Source of the DNA: Paracoccaceae bacterium
Lineage (GTDB): Bacteria; Pseudomonadota; Alphaproteobacteria; Rhodobacterales; Rhodobacteraceae
Direction: 5' to 3'
DNA length: 64,000 bases
NCBI GenBank assembly: GCA_019429405.1
Contig: JAHYIZ010000012.1
Coordinates: 1 to 64,000, forward strand
The notes under the pieces are model-generated. The model was not told the origin of the DNA and did no database searches. It saw only the letters and a program-made list of their open reading frames with translations. The number at the start of each line of letters is the position of its first letter. The first letter of the stretch is position 1. Made by a program: the position numbers and the translations under genes. This document shows positions 1,686 to 55,997 of the stretch, piece by piece.

Positions 1686-1714
1686 TTGCACCGCGCCGAC
1701 CTTTCGCCTATATC
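1686..1714 (+). promoter_or_regulatory. Candidate sigma70-type promoter for the rimP-nusA-infB leader
   Basis: TTGCAC (1686-1691) is followed, after exactly 17 bases, by TATATC (1709-1714). This is one of the best sigma70-like matches I see in the window. Transcription would start near 1720-1722, giving a leader of about 75 nt before the intrinsic terminator at 1767-1797 and about 90 nt before the rimP ATG. Confidence 0.55.
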
Positions 1715-1720
1715 GCCTTC

Positions 1721-1766
1721 AACAGCGGTCTGCGGGGTCCAAACTCGCAGCCAACCGGGAAAGAGC
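1721..1766 (+). ncRNA. Short leader RNA with alternative pairings (attenuator body)
   Basis: The predicted leader carries a hairpin CTGCG (1730-1734)/CGCAG (1746-1750). A competing pairing is also possible: GCGGTC at 1725-1730 can pair with GGCCGC at 1771-1776, the left arm of the terminator, with one G-U pair. The two structures are mutually exclusive, as expected for an attenuator. There is no ATG, so a leader peptide is unlikely. A stable small RNA of about 75 nt ending at the terminator is an alternative reading. Confidence 0.4.
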
Positions 1767-1797
1767 AACGGGCCGCGACGGCCCGTTTTTTGTTTTG
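1767..1797 (+). terminator. Strong intrinsic terminator immediately upstream of rimP
   Basis: A nine-base-pair stem (1767-1775 pairing with 1779-1787) with a CGA loop is followed by a run of T residues (TTTTTGTTTT to 1796). It ends about 15 bases before the rimP ATG and downstream of the candidate promoter at 1686-1714. It must be read through for operon expression from that promoter. Confidence 0.8.
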
Positions 1798-1811
1798 AGA
1801 GTGCTGAGCGC

Positions 1812-2435
1812 ATGACTGACCTGATCGCCAAAGCCGCCATCGACCAGCGCCTTGCCGGCATCGTTGGCCCCGTGATCGAGGGGCTGGGGTATGAACTGGT
1901 GCGCATCCGCCTGATGGGCGGGCTGAGCAAGACCTTGCAGATCATGGCCGACCGCCCCGAGGGCGGCATCGACGTGGACGATTGCGCCAAGATCTCAACC
2001 GGGGTTTCGGCGGCGCTCGACGTGGAAGACCCGATTTCCGAGCCCTATACGCTTGAAGTTTCAAGCCCCGGCATCGACCGGCCGCTGACCCGACTGAAGG
2101 ATTTCGACGTCTGGGTTGGCTATGAGGCGCGAATTGAAACCGAAGCGCAGATTGACGGGCGCAAGCGCTTCAAGGGTATTCTGGCGGGCACCGATGGCGA
2201 CGAGGTGCTGATAACGCTGCCCGAAGGCCCCGAGGGCGAATTGACCATTGGCCTGAAGTTCGACTGGCTGGCGGATGCCAAGCTGATTCTGACCGAAGAG
2301 CTGATTGCCGAGATGCTGCGCCAGCGCAAGGAAGCAGGCACGCTCGACGTGGCCCAGTTCGACGAGATCGAAGAAACCGAAGGCGACGAAGACGCGGGCG
2401 ATGATGCCCCCGGCGGCGCCACGACCCAACACTGA
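1812..2435 (+). CDS. rimP: Ribosome maturation factor RimP
   Basis: Protein of 207 aa needed for maturation of the 30S ribosomal subunit. The N-terminal domain (about residues 1-80, with the GYELVRIRL segment) is followed by the signature [10 protein letters not shown] and an SH3-like C-terminal domain, then a very acidic tail rich in Glu and Asp. The reading frame is open upstream to 1605, but homology begins at the ATG at 1812 (MTDLIAKAA), so I place the start there. It is the first gene of the conserved rimP-nusA-ylxR-infB operon and sits directly behind an intrinsic terminator, suggesting regulated readthrough. The gap to nusA is 20 bases and contains a GGAGG ribosome binding site. Confidence 0.93.
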
Positions 2436-2455: not shown

Positions 2456-4069
2456 ATGGCGATTACCTCTGCCAACCAGCTTGAACTTCTGCAAACCGCC
2501 GAGGCGGTGGCGCGCGAGAAGATGATCGACCCCGAATTGGTGATCCAGGCGATGGAGGACAGCCTCGCGCGGGCCGCCAAATCGCGCTACGGCGCCGAAA
2601 TGGACATTCGCGTGGCGATCGACCGCAAGACCGGGCGCGCGAAATTTACCCGCGTGCGCACGGTGGTGGGCGATGACGAGGTGGAAAACTATCAGGCGCA
2701 ACTGACGGTGGAGCAGGCCAAACCCTTTTTGGCCGAGCCGGCGGTGGGCGACGAGATCATCGACGAAGTGCCCCCGGTCGATTTGGGACGGATTGCAGCG
2801 CAAAGCGCCAAGCAGGTGATCTTGCAAAAAGTGCGCGAGGCCGAGCGCGACCGTCAGTACGAAGAATTCAAGGACCGCAAGGGCACGATCATCAACGGCG
2901 TGGTCAAGCGCGAGGAATACGGCAACATCATCGTCGATATCGGTCGGGGTGAGGCGATCTTGCGCCGCAATGAGCGGATCGGGCGCGAGAGCTTCCGCCC
3001 GAATGACCGCATCCGGTCTTACATCAAGGACGTTCGGCACGAACCGCGCGGGCCGCAGGTGTTCCTGTCGCGCACCGATCCGCAGTTCATGGCCGAGCTG
3101 TTCAAAATGGAAGTGCCCGAAATCTACGACGGCATCATCGAGATCAAGGCGGTGGCGCGCGACCCCGGCAGCCGCGCCAAGATTGCAGTGATTTCTTATG
3201 ACAACTCGATTGACCCGGTGGGCGCCTGCGTCGGTATGCGCGGCAGCCGCGTGCAGGCCGTGGTGGGCGAATTGCAGGGCGAGAAGATCGACATCATTCC
3301 GTGGAATGCCGATCAGGCAACGTTCCTTGTCAACGCGCTGCAACCTGCCGAGGTTTCCAAGGTGGTGATCGACGAAGAGGCGAACCGGATCGTTGTGGTG
3401 GTGCCCGACGAGCAGCTTTCGCTTGCCATCGGGCGGCGCGGGCAAAACGTGCGGCTTGCCAGCCAGCTGACCGGGCTCGACATTGACATCATGACCGAGG
3501 CTGATGAAAGCCAGCGCCGTCAGGCCGAGTTTGCCGAGCGCACCAAGCTCTTTGTCGATTCGCTCGATCTGGACGAGTTCTTCGCGCAGCTTCTGGTGGC
3601 CGAGGGCTTTACCAGCCTTGAAGAGGTCGCCTATGTCGATCTGGACGAGCTGTTGGCGATCGAGGGCGTCGATGAGGGCACCGCGGGCGAATTGCAGACG
3701 CGGGCGCGCGAATACCTCGAAGAACAGGCCCGCAAGGCGATGGAAGCGGCGCTTGCGCTGGGGCTTGAACAAAGCCTGATCGACTTTGAGGGGCTGACCC
3801 CGCAAATGCTCGAAGCGCTGGCCAAAGACGGCGTGAAAACGCTGGAAGACTTCGCCACCTGCGCCGATTGGGAGCTGGCAGGCGGCTGGACCACGATGAA
3901 TGGTCAGCGGGTGAAGGACGAGGGCATTCTTGAGAAGTTCGACATGAGCCTTGAGGAAGCACAGCATCTGGTGATGACTGCGCGCGTGCAACTGGGCTGG
4001 GTTGACCCTTCCGAGCTGGAAGCGCCGAAAGCCGAAGCTGGCGACGATGACGAGGAGGCCGAGGCCTGA
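2456..4069 (+). CDS. nusA: Transcription termination/antitermination factor NusA
   Basis: Protein of 537 aa that binds RNA polymerase and nascent RNA, controlling pausing, termination and antitermination. The order is an N-terminal polymerase-binding domain (about 1-130), an S1 domain (about 141-205, KREEYGNIIVDIGRGEAIL), KH1 (about 230-300, with GMRGSRVQAV), KH2 (about 309-345, with AIGRRGQNVRLA) and two C-terminal helix-hairpin-helix/acidic repeats (about 360-520). The tail is very acidic. Length and order are those of proteobacterial NusA. An excellent GGAGG site precedes the ATG. NusA is known to feed back on its own operon in enteric bacteria, which fits the terminator ahead of rimP here. 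Confidence 0.97.
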   Translation: MAITSANQLELLQTAEAVAREKMIDPELVIQAMEDSLARAAKSRYGAEMDIRVAIDRKTGRAKFTRVRTVVGDDEVENYQAQLTVEQAKPFLAEPAVGDEIIDEVPPVDLGRIAAQSAKQVILQKVREAERDRQYEEFKDRKGTIINGVVKREEYGNIIVDIGRGEAILRRNERIGRESFRPNDRIRSYIKDVRHEPRGPQVFLSRTDPQFMAELFKMEVPEIYDGIIEIKAVARDPGSRAKIAVISYDNSIDPVGACVGMRGSRVQAVVGELQGEKIDIIPWNADQATFLVNALQPAEVSKVVIDEEANRIVVVVPDEQLSLAIGRRGQNVRLASQLTGLDIDIMTEADESQRRQAEFAERTKLFVDSLDLDEFFAQLLVAEGFTSLEEVAYVDLDELLAIEGVDEGTAGELQTRAREYLEEQARKAMEAALALGLEQSLIDFEGLTPQMLEALAKDGVKTLEDFATCADWELAGGWTTMNGQRVKDEGILEKFDMSLEEAQHLVMTARVQLGWVDPSELEAPKAEAGDDDEEAEA

Positions 4070-4089: not shown

Positions 4090-4719
4090 ATGACACGCGG
4101 CGGTAAAGACCAGACCCCGGAAGACCCCGAACGCAGGTGCATCGTCACCGGCGAGGTGCAGCCCAAGGCCGGGCTGATCCGCTTTGTGGTCGGACCCGAG
4201 GAGATAATCTACCCCGATCTGGCAGAGAAACTGCCGGGCCGGGGCATCTGGGTCACTGCCGACCGCGAGTTGCTGGAGAAGGCGGTAAAAAAGGGCCTCT
4301 TTGCCCGCGCCGCCAAGGCACCGGTGACGCTGCCCGAGGGCCTCGTCGATCTGGTCGAGGCGGGGCTGGCGCAGCGGGTGGTAGACCTGGTGTCGCTGGC
4401 GCGCAAATCGGGGCGCGCGGTGTGTGGGTTTGAAAAGGTGAAGTCGTGGCTTGCAGAAGGCCGCGCCAAGGTTTTGTTACAGGCCTCCGACGGGTCTGAC
4501 CGCGGCAAGGGCAAGCTCTGGACGCCCGAAGGTGGGCGCTGGTTTGGCTGTCTGACCGCGTCGGAATTGGGTTTGGCTTTCGGCCGCGATCATGCCATAC
4601 ACGGCGCGCTTGCGGCTGGCGGCTTGACCTCACGCGTAAAAGTCGATGCTGCGAGGCTTACAGGCTTGCGCAAGCGGGACGGCGGCATGATCGCCGAGAA
4701 GGATACGAACACGGCATGA
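4090..4719 (+). CDS. YlxR-L7Ae fusion RNA-binding protein
   Basis: Protein of 209 aa joining two RNA-binding modules. The N-terminal half (about 12-90) is a YlxR/DUF448 domain with RRCIVTGE and [11 protein letters not shown]; the C-terminal half (about 95-190) resembles the L7Ae/L30e ribosomal family ([20 protein letters not shown]). In many bacteria the two are separate genes between nusA and infB, while alphaproteobacteria commonly carry this fusion. Its stop overlaps the infB start in ATGA, suggesting translational coupling. A role in ribosome or RNase P related RNA metabolism is proposed for YlxR relatives, but the exact function is not settled. Confidence 0.88.
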
Positions 4720-7268
4720 ACGATACTGACGGCAAAAAACCCCTCGGGCTGGGCGGCGCCAGCCACCCCGGACAGGTGAAGCAAAGCTTCAGCCACGGCC
4801 GAACCAAAAGCGTAGTGGTCGAAACCAAGCGCAAGCGCGTTCTGGTGCCCAAACCGGGCATGCCCGCGCCCAAAGCCCCTGGTGCCGCTGGCCCCTCGCC
4901 CACGGCAGGCGATCCGTCAAAACGCCCCGCCGGTATTTCCGACGCCGAAATGGACCGCCGCATGACCGCTTTGCGCGCCGCCAAGGCGCGCGAAGTCGAA
5001 GACGCTGCGCGGCGGATCGTTGAAGATAAAATCCGCGAGGAAGAACGCGCCCTGCGTGTGGCTGAAGCCGAGGCCAAGGCCAAGGAAGAAGCCGAGCGCG
5101 AAGAGGCCCTGCGGCTTCGGGCCGAGGAAGAAGCGCGCAAGCTGCGCGACGCCGAAGCCCGCGAGAAAAAGAAGGAAGACGTGCGCAGACCCGCGTCGGG
5201 CAAGCCCGCTGCGGCGGCCGATCCGGCCGCAGCCGAAGCTGCAGCAAGCCGCGCCGAAACCAAGGGCGTGGCCTCGGTCGGCCCGCGCAAGACCGACCGC
5301 GACCGCGTTGACCGCACTTCGGCCGCCGACCGCGATGCACGCGGCAAGGCCAAAGGCGCCGATGACGCCCGCCGTACCGGCAAGCTGACCCTGACCGACG
5401 CCCTTGCGGGCGAAGGCGGGCGCCAGCGCAGCCTGGCCGCGATGAAGCGCAAGCAGGAAAAGGCGCGCCAGAAGGCACTCGGCATTCATGCCAAGCCCGA
5501 AAAGCAAGTGCGCGACGTGCGGCTGCCCGAAGCCATCATAGTTTCGGAACTGGCGAACCGCATGGCGGAACGTGCCGCTGATGTGGTGAAAAGCCTGATG
5601 AAAATGGGCATGATGGTGTCGATCAACGAACCCATCGACGCCGACACCGCCGAACTGGTGATCGAAGAATTCGGCCACCGCGCGGTGCGGGTTTCCGATG
5701 CCGACGTCGAACATGTGATCGACACGGTGCATGATGCCGCCGAAAATCTGGCGCCGCGCCCGCCGGTGGTGACGATCATGGGCCACGTTGACCACGGCAA
5801 GACCTCGATTCTTGACGCGATCCGCCACACCACGGTCGCCAGCGGCGAAGCCGGGGGCATTACCCAGCACATCGGCGCCTATCAGGTAAAAACCGATGCC
5901 GGCGCCGTGCTGACCTTCCTCGACACGCCCGGCCACGCAGCCTTCACCAGCATGCGCGCACGCGGCGCGCAGGTGACCGACATCGTGGTGCTGGTGGTCG
6001 CCGCAGACGATCAGGTGATGCCGCAGACGATTGAGGCGATCAACCACGCCAAGGCGGCGAATGTGCCGATGATCGTGGCGATCAACAAGATCGACAAATA
6101 CGAGGCCAACCCGCAAAAGGTGCGCACCGACCTGCTGCAACATTCGGTTGTGGTGGAAGAGATGTCGGGCGACGTGCTGGATGTCGAGGTTTCGGCCACG
6201 ACGGGGCAGGGGCTGGACAAGCTTCTGGAAGCTATCGCCTTGCAGGCCGAACTTCTTGACCTGCGCGCCAACCCCGACCGCGCCGCGCTGGGCGCGGTGA
6301 TCGAAGCCAAGCTTGATGTGGGCCGTGGCCCGGTGGCCACCGTGCTGGTGCAAAACGGCACCCTGAAGCATGGCGACATCTTTGTGGTCGGCGAACAGTG
6401 GGGCAAGGTGCGCGCGCTGATCAACGACAAGGGCGAGCGGGTCGATGCCGCCGGGCCTTCGGTGCCGGTCGAGGTGCTGGGCCTGAACGGCACACCGCAA
6501 GCTGGTGACGTGCTGAACGTGGTTGAGACCGAGGCGCAGGCGCGCGAAATCGCCGACTACCGCATCAAGGCGGCGCGCGACAAGCGCGCGGCAGCGGGTG
6601 CGGCGACGACGCTGGAACAGCTTATGGCCAAGGCCAAGGCCGACAAATCGGTGGCAGAGCTGCCGATTCTGGTGAAGGCCGATGTGCAGGGGTCTGCCGA
6701 AGCCATTTCGCAAGCGATGGAGAAGATCGGCAACGAAGAGGTGCGCGTGCGCGTGCTGCATTCGGGCGTCGGCGCCATTACCGAAAGCGACATCGGGCTG
6801 GCAGAGGCTTCGGGCGCGCCGGTGATCGGCTTTAACGTGCGGGCCAATGCGCCGGCGCGGGCAGCCGCCAACCAGAAGGGCGTCGAAATCCGCTATTACT
6901 CGATCATCTACGATCTGGTCGATGACATCAAAGCCGCCGCTTCGGGCCTGCTGAAAAACGAAGTGCGCGAAACCTTCATCGGCTATGCCACGATCAAGGA
7001 AGTGTTCAAGGTTTCAGGCGTTGGCAAGGTTGCTGGCTGCCTTGTGACCGAAGGTGTGGCGCAACGCTCCGCCGGGGTGCGTTTGCTGCGCGACGATGTG
7101 GTCATTCACGAAGGCACGCTGAAAACGCTCAAGCGCTTCAAGGACGAGGTGAAAGAGGTGATCTCGGGTCAGGAATGCGGCATGGCGTTTGAGAACTACG
7201 AAGACATCCGCAATGGCGACGTGATCGAGATTTTCACCCGCGAAGAGATCGTACGCAAGCTGGCGTGA
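4716..7268 (+). CDS. infB: Translation initiation factor IF-2
   Basis: GTPase of 850 aa that brings fMet-tRNA to the 30S subunit and promotes subunit joining. A long, highly charged, coiled N-terminal region rich in Ala, Glu, Lys and Arg (about 60-250) precedes the IF2_N domain. The G domain follows, with G1 GHVDHGKT at 356-363, G3 DTPGH at 403-407 and G4 NKID at 457-460. Domains II, III and IV complete the protein, with the C-terminal ECGMAFENY motif near the end. It overlaps the preceding gene by four bases and is followed by a bidirectional terminator at 7288-7312. Confidence 0.97.
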
Positions 7269-7287: not shown

Positions 7288-7312
7288 AAAAGCCGCCTTC
7301 GGGCGGCTTTTT
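7288..7312. terminator. Bidirectional intrinsic terminator between infB and mutT
   Basis: AAAAGCCGCC, a TTCG tetraloop region and GGCGGCTTTTT form a symmetrical hairpin with A-runs and T-runs on both sides. It serves infB on the plus strand and mutT, which ends at 7318, on the minus strand. Confidence 0.9.
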
Positions 7313-7317
7313 CATGC

Positions 7318-18032: not shown

Positions 18033-18854
18033 TCAGCGGCGCGCGCCCCAGCTGACCGAGGCATACTGGCGGGTATAGAACTCGCCCATCAGGCCGATCA
18101 TCAGCGCAATCAGACCGACAAGGAGCGGATAGGTCCAGTTCGAGTAGTGCGGATTGTAGTTGAGAAAGGTGAACCCGCGCGCCTGGTCGATGGTGTGAAA
18201 AAGCGGGTTCCAGTCGAACAGTTTGATCATCTTGAAGCTGAGCGTATTGGCCAGAAACATCTTGCCTGAAGCGATCATGTTGGCGCGACTGTAAAGCTGC
18301 TGAATCACGCCCACGGCGTTTGGCGCCCAGGGTTTGGCGGCAAGCAGCACGGTGCCGAAGGCAGCACCCGTGAACCATGACAAGACCAGCATCGCATAGG
18401 CCGCCAGCGGCTGGTCGATGGTAACGGGGGTAAAGGCAACGTGGTAGATGAACAGCACCATAAGCAACGACAGTGTCTGAATATAAAGCACGCCCAGCGC
18501 CGCCGAGCCGATTGTGACCGCAGTGGTCATCGGCGCGTGTTTCATCATCGCCGAAGTCGGGTCCTCAGCCCCTGCCACCGCAGCAATCGCCTTGGTGTGG
18601 GTCAGGAACATGAAGATGCCTGACATGATGTAGAGCAGAAAGTCACCGCGCACCGCATTGCCGCGCATGCCCAGAATATCGAACATCAGGTAGAACGCAC
18701 CGACCAGAACAACGGTCTGCATCATGTTCATAAGCAGACCGAAGATGGCGTTGCCGTGCGACTTTCGGACCGAGCGGACCGTGGCGTGATAAATCAGCGC
18801 CAGAATGCCGAAGCCGGTGCTGATCTTGCCCTTGCGGCGCTGTGGCGTAAACAT
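18033..18854 (-). CDS. ABC-2 type polysaccharide export permease
   Basis: Integral membrane protein of 273 aa with about six hydrophobic helices and the layout of the KpsM/Wzm permeases that export capsule or O-antigen with a KpsT/Wzt ATPase. A basic cytoplasmic N-terminus (RRKGK, then ATVRSVRKSHGNA) precedes the first helix, and the C-terminal helix is followed by RQYASVSWG. The open frame continues to 18974, but the ATG at 18854 matches the normal N-terminus. No ATPase gene is adjacent, so the partner must be elsewhere. It is divergent from cysQ and lies at the edge of the sugar-metabolism and glycosyltransferase genes. Confidence 0.78.
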   Translation of the reverse strand: MFTPQRRKGKISTGFGILALIYHATVRSVRKSHGNAIFGLLMNMMQTVVLVGAFYLMFDILGMRGNAVRGDFLLYIMSGIFMFLTHTKAIAAVAGAEDPTSAMMKHAPMTTAVTIGSAALGVLYIQTLSLLMVLFIYHVAFTPVTIDQPLAAYAMLVLSWFTGAAFGTVLLAAKPWAPNAVGVIQQLYSRANMIASGKMFLANTLSFKMIKLFDWNPLFHTIDQARGFTFLNYNPHYSNWTYPLLVGLIALMIGLMGEFYTRQYASVSWGARR

Positions 18855-18988
18855 GCTGCCCCGTTCCTGCCGCCGGTGCGGCCCTGCCCGCAGTGTTGTC
18901 GGGAAACCTTGCCGATCCCTTGAGGGCGCATCATAAGGGGAATGCTTCGTTTGATCAACGCCAGCCGCCGACACCGGAGATTGCCGCG

Positions 18989-53251: not shown

Positions 53252-54779
53252 GGGTACCGATCCGGTCAAACAGCCAGAAGAGGCCGAAGGAAAGCACCAT
53301 CAAGAGGCTCGCCGCGGCGGCGGCATCGGCCATGCGGTAAGCGCCCATAAGCGCGTAAAGTTGCAGCGGCAGCGTCGCCTGCGCCGGGTCGGCAAAGAGC
53401 GCGATCACCCCCAGGTCGCCCATCGATAGCGCCGCTGCAAGCCCCGCCGCAAAGCCGAGCGGCCGGGCGAGGCGGGGCAAGATGAGCAGCCGCAGCCGGG
53501 CAAGCCCGGTAAGCCCTAGCGAGGCGGCAAGCCGGGCATAGTCGGCCTCAAGTGCGCGCGTCGCTGGCAGCAGGGTGCGCAGCGCAAACGGCAGCGCAAG
53601 CGCGGCGTTGACCGCCACCGTGACCGGCAGCGCCAGCGTGCCGGGCGCCGCAAACGGGCGCAGCATCAGGAACAGCCCGGTGCCAAGCACCAGCGGAGAG
53701 GCCACAAGCGGCAACGTGCCCGCCCATTCAAACCGCCGCTGCCGGACGGCTGCGAGCGCCAGCGGCAGCGCCAGCGCGAGCGTAAGCGCGGTGGCGGCGA
53801 GCGCGACCGCAAGCGAGCGCGCAGCAGCGAGCCAGACTGCGGCGGGCAACACCGCCACCGCTGGCAGACCGCGCGCCAGAACCGCCGCCATCGGCACGAT
53901 CAGAAAAGCCGCCGCAAGAGCAATCGCCACCGCGTCTTGCGCTCGCAAGACGTGCCCCGCAGGCGGAGCCAGCACCGCGCGACGGTCGAGCCCCGCGCCA
54001 AAACCCTGCGGCAGCGCGATGCGCGTGGTCGCGGCAAGCGCCGCAATGCAGAGCGCGACCTGCAGCAGCCCGAGGCTCGCGGCGCGGGCAAGGTCAAAAT
54101 CGAAACGAAAGGCCTGGTAGATGGCAAGCTCGATAGTGGTGGCGGCGGGGCCTCCGCCCAAGGTCAGCGCCACCGCGAATGAGGTGAGGCAGACGAGAAA
54201 GATGGCAAGCCACGCGCCCGGCAAGGTGGCGCGCAGCATCGGGCCCTCTAGGTGGCTAAATGTCGCGCTTGGCGTAAAGCCCAGCGATGCAGCAAGCCGG
54301 AACCGCTCAACCGGAATCGCCTGCCAGCCTTGCAGCAGCAGGCGCGTGGCGAGCGGCAGGTTGAAGAACACATGTGCCAGCACCACGCCTTGCGCGCCAT
54401 AGATCGAAACGCGCGGCAGGCCCAGCAGGGCGAGCCCGTCATTGAGCACACCGGCGCGGCCGAAGACGGCCAGCAACCCCATGACCGCAACCACGGCAGG
54501 CAGAATGAACGGCGCGCCCATCAGCGAGATGAGCGCGCCGCGCCCCGGAAAGCGGCGGCGGTGCAGCGCGCGCGCCACCGGCACCGCCAGCAACGCCGAA
54601 AGCGTGGCCGAGACAAGCGCCTGCAGCACGGTAAAGCGCGCGGCGCCGAGGTCTGCCGTTTGCAGCGCGCCCAGACCGCCCGCCCGCCATGCCACCGCCC
54701 CAAGCGTGCCGAGCACCAGCGCCAGCACCGCCAGCGCCGCAAGCCTTGCTGCCATCACCGCGCCAGGGCTGCGCGCCAT
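53238..54779 (-). CDS. thiP: Thiamine/thiamine pyrophosphate ABC transporter permease ThiP
   Basis: Membrane protein of up to 513 aa with about 12 hydrophobic helices, a fused double permease. The two EAA-type loops can be seen around VERFRLAASLGFTP and EADYARLAASLGLTG. The start is uncertain: ATG 54779 overlaps the thiB end by 25 bases, while ATG 54755 overlaps the thiB stop by one base (TGATG), the usual coupling form. Forms the channel for ThiB-delivered thiamine. Confidence 0.88.
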   Translation of the reverse strand: MARSPGAVMAARLAALAVLALVLGTLGAVAWRAGGLGALQTADLGAARFTVLQALVSATLSALLAVPVARALHRRRFPGRGALISLMGAPFILPAVVAVMGLLAVFGRAGVLNDGLALLGLPRVSIYGAQGVVLAHVFFNLPLATRLLLQGWQAIPVERFRLAASLGFTPSATFSHLEGPMLRATLPGAWLAIFLVCLTSFAVALTLGGGPAATTIELAIYQAFRFDFDLARAASLGLLQVALCIAALAATTRIALPQGFGAGLDRRAVLAPPAGHVLRAQDAVAIALAAAFLIVPMAAVLARGLPAVAVLPAAVWLAAARSLAVALAATALTLALALPLALAAVRQRRFEWAGTLPLVASPLVLGTGLFLMLRPFAAPGTLALPVTVAVNAALALPFALRTLLPATRALEADYARLAASLGLTGLARLRLLILPRLARPLGFAAGLAAALSMGDLGVIALFADPAQATLPLQLYALMGAYRMADAAAAASLLMVLSFGLFWLFDRIGTHADA

Positions 54780-55753
54780 TCGGCAAGGGCCGGGCCCCGC
54801 GCCGCCAGCGCCTCTTCTGGCGACATCAGAAGCGATTTCACCGGCAAGATCAGCCAGTCAAATGCCAGCGGCAAGCCCGCAGGCGAGATCGTGGCAGGAT
54901 ACATCCAGTTCGTTTCGGGGATCGTGCCCTGCACTGCGGGCGAATGCAGGAACGCCAGAAACCGGTCCGCCAGCGCGGGCTGGTCTGACCCCACCAGCCG
55001 ACCCGCAACCTCGATTTGCAGGTAGTGGCCTTCGGCAAAGGACGCCGCCTCTTTGGTCACGTCGCCCTCAGCGATTACATGGTAGGCGGGCGAAGTGGTG
55101 TAGCTGAGCACCATGTCAGCTTCGCCCTCCAGAAACATGCCATAGGCTTCGGACCAGCCGGGGGTCACGGTCACGATGTTGTCGGCAAGCCCCTCCCAGA
55201 CTTCGGCGGCGCGCTCGCCATAAGCCGCCTTGACCCAGAGCAACAGGCCAAGGCCGGGAGTCGAAGATCGGGGATCCTGAATCACGATCTTCACATCTGA
55301 TGCGCCAAGCGCCAAGAAATCGGCGGGCGGCACAGCAAGGCGCGTGGTGTCATGGACAAAGGCGAACCAGCCCCAGTCATAGGGCGTGAACAGCGGGTCA
55401 TCGTAGGGCACCGGCAGATCGGGCGCGGGCGCAAGCCCGTGCGGCGCAAAGAGGCCTGTGGCGGCGGCCTGCGCGGTCAGGCTGGTATCAAGCCCCAGCA
55501 CAACGTCAGCTTCGGTCCTCGCGCCTTCCAGCAGCAACCGCGCCAGCAGCGCCGCACCATCGCCCGCGCCGACAAAGCGCAGATCGCAGCCGCAGTCGCG
55601 CTCAAACACCTCTTCGATCACCGGGCCGGGGCCCCATTCGGAAATGAAGCTGTCGTAGGTCAGCACTGTCAGAACGGGCTTGTCCTGCGCTTGTGCCACA
55701 AAAGCCGTAGCTGTGGCGCAGAGCAGGCCCGCAAGCATCAGGAATGGTCGCAT
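54755..55753 (-). CDS. thiB: Thiamine-binding periplasmic protein ThiB
   Basis: Periplasmic solute-binding protein of 332 aa for thiamine and TPP. Signal peptide (hydrophobic core about 5-18, cleavage near VAQAQ at about 23), then LTVLTYDSFISEWGPGPVI typical of ThiB, and YDWGWFAFVHD with Trp and Tyr residues of the ligand pocket. The start is ATG 55753 with GGAGG upstream; a TTG 12 bases earlier is unlikely. The TPP riboswitch at 55805-55894 precedes it. Confidence 0.92.
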   Translation of the reverse strand: MRPFLMLAGLLCATATAFVAQAQDKPVLTVLTYDSFISEWGPGPVIEEVFERDCGCDLRFVGAGDGAALLARLLLEGARTEADVVLGLDTSLTAQAAATGLFAPHGLAPAPDLPVPYDDPLFTPYDWGWFAFVHDTTRLAVPPADFLALGASDVKIVIQDPRSSTPGLGLLLWVKAAYGERAAEVWEGLADNIVTVTPGWSEAYGMFLEGEADMVLSYTTSPAYHVIAEGDVTKEAASFAEGHYLQIEVAGRLVGSDQPALADRFLAFLHSPAVQGTIPETNWMYPATISPAGLPLAFDWLILPVKSLLMSPEEALAARGPALAEWRAALAR

Positions 55754-55804
55754 CGCATCCTCCAATGGCTTGACGGGCGGGGTCAGGCCGGGGAATGCCC
55801 GGAT

Positions 55805-55894
55805 ACCTTCCCTCCGCCGGTCTTAACCGGTTCAGGTTCGACGGGTTCGCGGGTCATTCCGCATCTCAGCCCGGCACATGGGCTCCCCGAGGTG
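55805..55894 (-). promoter_or_regulatory. TPP riboswitch (THI element)
   Basis: The minus strand carries the hallmark segments in order: CTCGGGGAGCCC at the 5' end, GGGCTGAGATG in the pyrimidine-sensing arm, GACCCG and GAACCTGA, and the closing GGAGGGAAGG. The region ends about 50 bases before the thiB ATG. No terminator with a T-run is seen between it and thiB, so control of translation initiation (hiding the GGAGG site) is more likely than termination. Repression of thiamine uptake by TPP is expected. Confidence 0.95.
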
Positions 55895-55997
55895 TGGCGC
55901 AGCATATGCTGTGGGGCGGAGTGCGCAAGGCAAAATCGCTTGAGCCGTGGCGCCCGCGGGGCTAAGCGATGCGCACGCCCCACAAGGAGTCCCCGCG

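Follow-up and report, generated by a model that had tools for sequence, protein, structure and literature searches.

A probable Rhodobacterales form of the rimP-leader attenuator upstream of rimP-nusA-infB

A structured leader of about 75 nt is located directly 5' of the rimP-nusA-infB operon in the window (the whole 64,000-nt stretch of Paracoccaceae DNA analysed here). The leader belongs to the rimP-leader kind already described, as a Rhodobacterales variant, and in our judgement it is likely the form that the rimP-leader attenuator takes in Alphaproteobacteria (Rhodobacterales), with an antiterminator switch and a terminator arranged as proposed below. It probably acts as an on/off switch for the essential genes rimP-nusA-infB. 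Core factors of transcription and translation are encoded by the nusA-infB operon and, to our knowledge, feedback on it has been debated from the 1980s onwards, in most bacteria with no mechanism at the RNA level. The upstream covarying hairpin and the candidate antiterminator appear to be the new part. The elements of the leader in the window are:

1686..1714 (+), promoter, with −35 TTGCAC (1686-1691), a 17-nt spacer and −10 TATATC (1709-1714); from the sequence and relatives
1720..1797 (+), whole leader, or terminated RNA of about 75 nt; from covariance model R1
1723..1730 (+), candidate antiterminator 5' strand, CAGCGGUC; partner at 1771-1776, with compensatory variants among relatives
1726..1757 (+), P1-P2 hairpin, with P1 1726-1729/1754-1757 and P2 1730-1736/1744-1750; from the minimum free energy (MFE) fold and covariation
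1767..1796 (+), intrinsic terminator, with stem 1767-1775/1779-1787, loop 1776-1778 and T6-G-T4 at 1786-1796
1771..1776 (+), GGCCGC, used both by the terminator 5' arm/loop and in the candidate antiterminator; from the sequence and the predicted intermediate

The operon downstream had been read as rimP-nusA-infB in an earlier note on this DNA, and NCBIfam models agreed, returning RimP, NusA, a YlxR/RnpM-like protein and IF-2:

1812..2435 (+), rimP, first gene of the operon (NCBIfam NF000932)
2456..4069 (+), nusA (TIGR01953)
4090..4719 (+), gene of a YlxR/RnpM-like RNA-binding protein (NF006622 above cut-off; RnpM model below cut-off)
4716..7268 (+), infB, encoding IF-2 (TIGR00487)
7289..7315 (+), operon-closing terminator just past infB, a hairpin with T-runs on both strands

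The promoter, the nine-base-pair terminator with its T-run and the closely following rimP ATG, all described in the earlier note, were found in place. The 5' end of the leader falls at about 1720-1722, the T-tail of the terminator ends at 1796 and the ATG begins at 1812. The hairpin that had been drawn as CTGCG (1730-1734) with CGCAG (1746-1750) is present and is in fact longer, with 7 bp and a 4-bp closing stem. Positions 1726-1729 are used twice, in the candidate antiterminator 5' strand and in the 5' side of P1. Because the fold of the single window leader was only moderately better than that of shuffled sequences (MFE z −2.4), and because the output of a simple promoter scan of the window did not contain the 1686-1714 promoter, comparative proof was required.

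Loci were fetched via RimP (110, nearly all from Rhodobacteraceae) and the leader unit was present directly 5' of rimP in 110/110, either whole or as much of it as the contig holds. In relatives the unit consists of CAACAGCGG at the start of the leader, the hairpin, and then ACGGGCCGC..GCCCGU with a U-tract. The covariance model R1 matched 149/149 genomes sampled from the order, in almost every case with a single strong match; its match in the window (70.7 bits, E 1.1e-20) is the sole strong copy in the source genome. A weak second R1 match (G000:C46) was set aside, being an ordinary terminator that follows an unrelated gene. The promoter arrangement TTG(C)-17-TATAT(G/C) was kept in 180 of 196 leaders, as against 1.3% of shuffles. 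The unit recognized in the earlier note is real and lies far beyond chance expectation. The distance from the terminator to the start codon in relatives is about 8 to 62 nt, which leaves little room for another promoter, so that rimP must be reached by read-through. The attenuator layout recognized in the earlier note is thus supported by conservation, by the lack of room for another promoter and by a published leader family (see below). A coding function of the leader was rejected, as leader-to-start distances occur in all three phases and in-frame stops are present in 30/109 leaders.

In the Planktomarina-like loci L073-L075, L081, L090, L096-L098, L101, L103, L109 and L110, the TTGC-17-TATAT arrangement is replaced ahead of the same leader. 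The replacement is a conserved TGGGATTGAAAC...CTCTGTA-like block, about 45 nt 5' of the leader, and is perhaps a site for another sigma factor or an activator.

Structure statistics were obtained from an alignment of 89 sequences. RNAalifold on the MAFFT alignment was limited by indels and recovered only part of P2 and the terminator; pairs were therefore counted on the named structure. Two-sided changes were found in 7 of the 8 pairs of P2, and the covariation score of the whole structure was 0.218 versus 0.113 for shuffled alignments, well above slid versions too. P1 is conserved, yet shows no two-sided change in the same alignment and is for that reason not taken as proven. The terminator core CGGG/CCCG (1769-1772, 1782-1785) is invariant in sequence in 89/89 relatives, and only the outer pair of the terminator covaries (A-U to G-C). 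The invariance of GGG/CCC exceeds what base pairing demands and the antiterminator accounts for part of it only; a protein that reads the terminator stem is possible. In the P2 loop (window 1737-1743), UCCA is kept in most relatives without a structural reason, and is exchanged for short stem extensions in several members of the Roseobacter group.

The candidate antiterminator is formed by CAGCGG in the 5' strand of the leader, complementary to CCGCUG in the tip of the terminator 5' arm and the loop. The pairing of GCGGTC (1725-1730) with GGCCGC (1771-1776) proposed in the earlier note is available in the window with one G-U pair; among relatives, almost every leader is predicted to form it first, and it shows compensatory changes. 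Leader and terminator partners from the same locus paired better than swapped partners (z 6.5; 0/20,000 permutations; 71 distinct pairs), in permutations that ignore relatedness. Clear compensations are CAGAGG/CCUCUG, CAACAG/CUGUUG and AACGG/CCGU, and a joint origin of CAGAGG and CCUCUG was placed twice on the RimP+NusA tree. Since a C-to-A change breaks a P1 pair with an invariant partner, the long-range partner can be argued to matter. In locus L196, CCGCUG is retained though it has been displaced by an insertion. Plain pair counts gave modest support for the competing stem, a phylogeny-aware sign test for compensatory change was not significant (p 0.25, too few events), and most of the pairing is lost in L009, L013, L090 and L103. 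Two pattern searches for 5'-strand variants in 394 genomes used patterns that were too loose; background was dominant, and their matches were left out of the evidence. The loss of stem conservation and covariation that the earlier note would have held against an attenuator was not what these comparisons returned, with the covariation of the competing stem amounting to few independent events.

Before the 3' arm emerges, 97% of 186 leaders were predicted to pair the 5' strand with the terminator arm; for shuffled leaders the share was 23%. For the complete RNA the terminator was predicted to win in most leaders. An early antiterminator followed by a terminator, as these folds predict, is how a kinetic attenuator would be expected to behave.

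The mechanism that we propose would proceed as follows. Transcription would start at about 1721 from the dedicated promoter, and the 5' strand CAGCGG would first pair with CCGC(UG) as this part of the terminator arm emerges, giving an antiterminator state that allows read-through into rimP-nusA-ylxR-infB. Where this pairing fails to form or is displaced, the terminator would form and an RNA of about 75 nt would be released. One route to the terminator may be retention of the 5' strand by the P1-P2 hairpin; another may be assistance by NusA in the folding of the terminator hairpin. With NusA, encoded in the same operon, as the main input, the outcome would be negative feedback. From the layout and from published relatives we infer real termination, partial read-through and regulation of read-through; a role of NusA as input at this leader is suggested by the same analogy. 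The discrete RNA of about 75 nt, which the earlier note had offered as the other reading, would be the product of termination and for that reason is compatible with an attenuator rather than a true alternative to it. Searches of the literature returned no transcript data for the rimP locus in relatives (Rhodobacter, Paracoccus, Ruegeria).

The rimP-leader attenuator was described in the 5' UTR of rimP-nusA-infB, with a terminator located 4-130 nt ahead of the start of the gene and a highly conserved GGGc(...)gCCC followed by a U-stretch (Naville & Gautheret 2010; PMC2965389). The leader analysed here shares the operon position, the GGGC..GCCC stem with its U-tract (T6 in the window, with the same motif class-wide) and the short distance to the start codon, given above for the window and its relatives. 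It differs in that Rhodobacteraceae add the covarying upstream hairpin and the candidate antiterminator. The general rimP-leader has no visible antiterminator, a remark of its authors rather than a strict criterion, and the gammaproteobacterial tandem rimP-leader has an antiterminator different from the Rhodobacteraceae candidate (PMC2965389). Because a candidate antiterminator with compensatory changes departs from the general form, the leader was filed as a variant. The Rfam rimP model (RF01770) scored above its gathering threshold in 0/41 genomes, including that of the window, and was positive in the E. coli control; Rfam searches of the window at gathering and permissive thresholds returned neither RF01770 nor another relevant match at the leader. 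The alphaproteobacterial form thus escapes the Rfam rimP model, a gap that the leader described here closes.

Other alphaproteobacterial families were sampled with 28 loci (L168-L195) picked by RimP protein alone. A GGGC..GCCC terminator (of the GGTGGGCC..GGCCCAC type) with a U-tract was found before rimP in about 23 of the 28; of the automatic matches three are questionable, and on inspection by eye two that were missed seem genuine. Other stretches of the same loci gave a background of 3%. The upstream hairpin of Rhodobacteraceae was not generally found in these families, and a few distant loci (e.g. L147) matched R1 weakly at rimP.

These loci are also what would be expected of a plain terminator whose efficiency is set by NusA, or by another reader of the GGGC..GCCC stem, with CAGCGG:CCGCUG incidental or serving only to shape folding. 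We regard this as a serious possibility, if the less probable one: most rimP-leaders combine the conserved GGGc..gCCC with no antiterminator (PMC2965389), the GGG/CCC of the Rhodobacteraceae terminator is invariant throughout, and the other families keep the terminator, mostly without the upstream hairpin. It leaves unexplained, however, why CCGC(UG) is retained in the tip and loop, even where displaced (L196), and why it changes together with the 5' strand of the leader. NusA autoregulation at such leaders has been published for Bacillus subtilis, where NusA acts by termination in its own leader (Mondal 2016, as cited in PMC12288461), and proposed for Streptococcus agalactiae and Escherichia coli. 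In S. agalactiae, RNAs of two sizes, short and long, share a single start site in the 5' UTR of the rimP operon (PMC4448216). Like the present leader, the systems of B. subtilis and S. agalactiae place an intrinsic terminator in the 5' UTR of the operon that encodes NusA; they belong to Firmicutes, and NusA dependence in Rhodobacterales is put forward by analogy. The B. subtilis control reportedly works without an antiterminator, so that an antiterminator is not required for control by NusA. For the attenuator with a switch, we see about an even chance that Rhodobacteraceae have turned a near-universal, factor-dependent rimP-leader into a two-state RNA switch, with a covarying antiterminator, a 5' strand sequestered by a conserved hairpin and an RNA of about 75 nt that is possibly functional. 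The leader is present in every Rhodobacteraceae genome checked, the bases named here should switch termination, and the family is genetically tractable.

The unit might instead be, first of all, a gene for a small RNA that functions in trans, the rimP operon living on read-through. The precedent is UpsM, a small RNA derived from the 5' UTR before mraZ in Rhodobacter sphaeroides, with about one read-through per 100 starts (PMC5089854). UpsM comes from the same family and shares a promoter, a structured leader, a terminator and read-through into an essential operon; it differs in operon and sequence, and UpsM is 206 nt long, is processed by RNase E and depends on Hfq. The promoter of its own, the strong terminator and the partly conserved P2 loop (UCCA) would suit a small RNA. 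We consider it unlikely all the same, since the unit always lies directly 5' of rimP with only one strong copy per genome, the P2 loop is replaced in many relatives, and a covarying competing stem is not predicted for a small RNA.

A conserved hairpin 5' of a terminator and a candidate antiterminator could also suggest a ligand-binding riboswitch with P1-P2 as its aptamer. This is very improbable: the hairpin is simple, its loop is variable, it is much shortened in Jannaschia (L099), and the leader had no Rfam riboswitch match, permissive threshold included.

The upstream neighbour in the window is tspO (TspO by NCBIfam), in the same direction as rimP. The gene upstream varies in relatives, with tspO at 12/107 loci and pip at 42/107, so the leader unit belongs to rimP. 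An ordinary tspO terminator with chance pairing, which the position and direction of tspO might suggest, can be dismissed almost entirely, given a synteny that disfavours it, with tspO at these 12 loci only, and the conserved promoter between tspO and rimP. Just past tspO and 5' of the rimP promoter, a strong GC-rich hairpin without a T-run is found at 1616-1648; it could mark where the tspO message ends.

Two further RNA elements were noted elsewhere in the window. An Rfam Cis2_sRNA match at 18138-18290 (+) is antisense to an ORF at 18033-18974 (−) that is ABC transporter permease-like. The definition of the family itself goes back to a position antisense to a gene of this kind in Ruegeria (PMC4809877), so conserved coding sequence may be all that the match reflects. 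A TPP riboswitch at 55792-55899 (−) lies 5' of an ORF at 54755-55765 (−), thiamine-binding periplasmic protein-like, and is ordinary.
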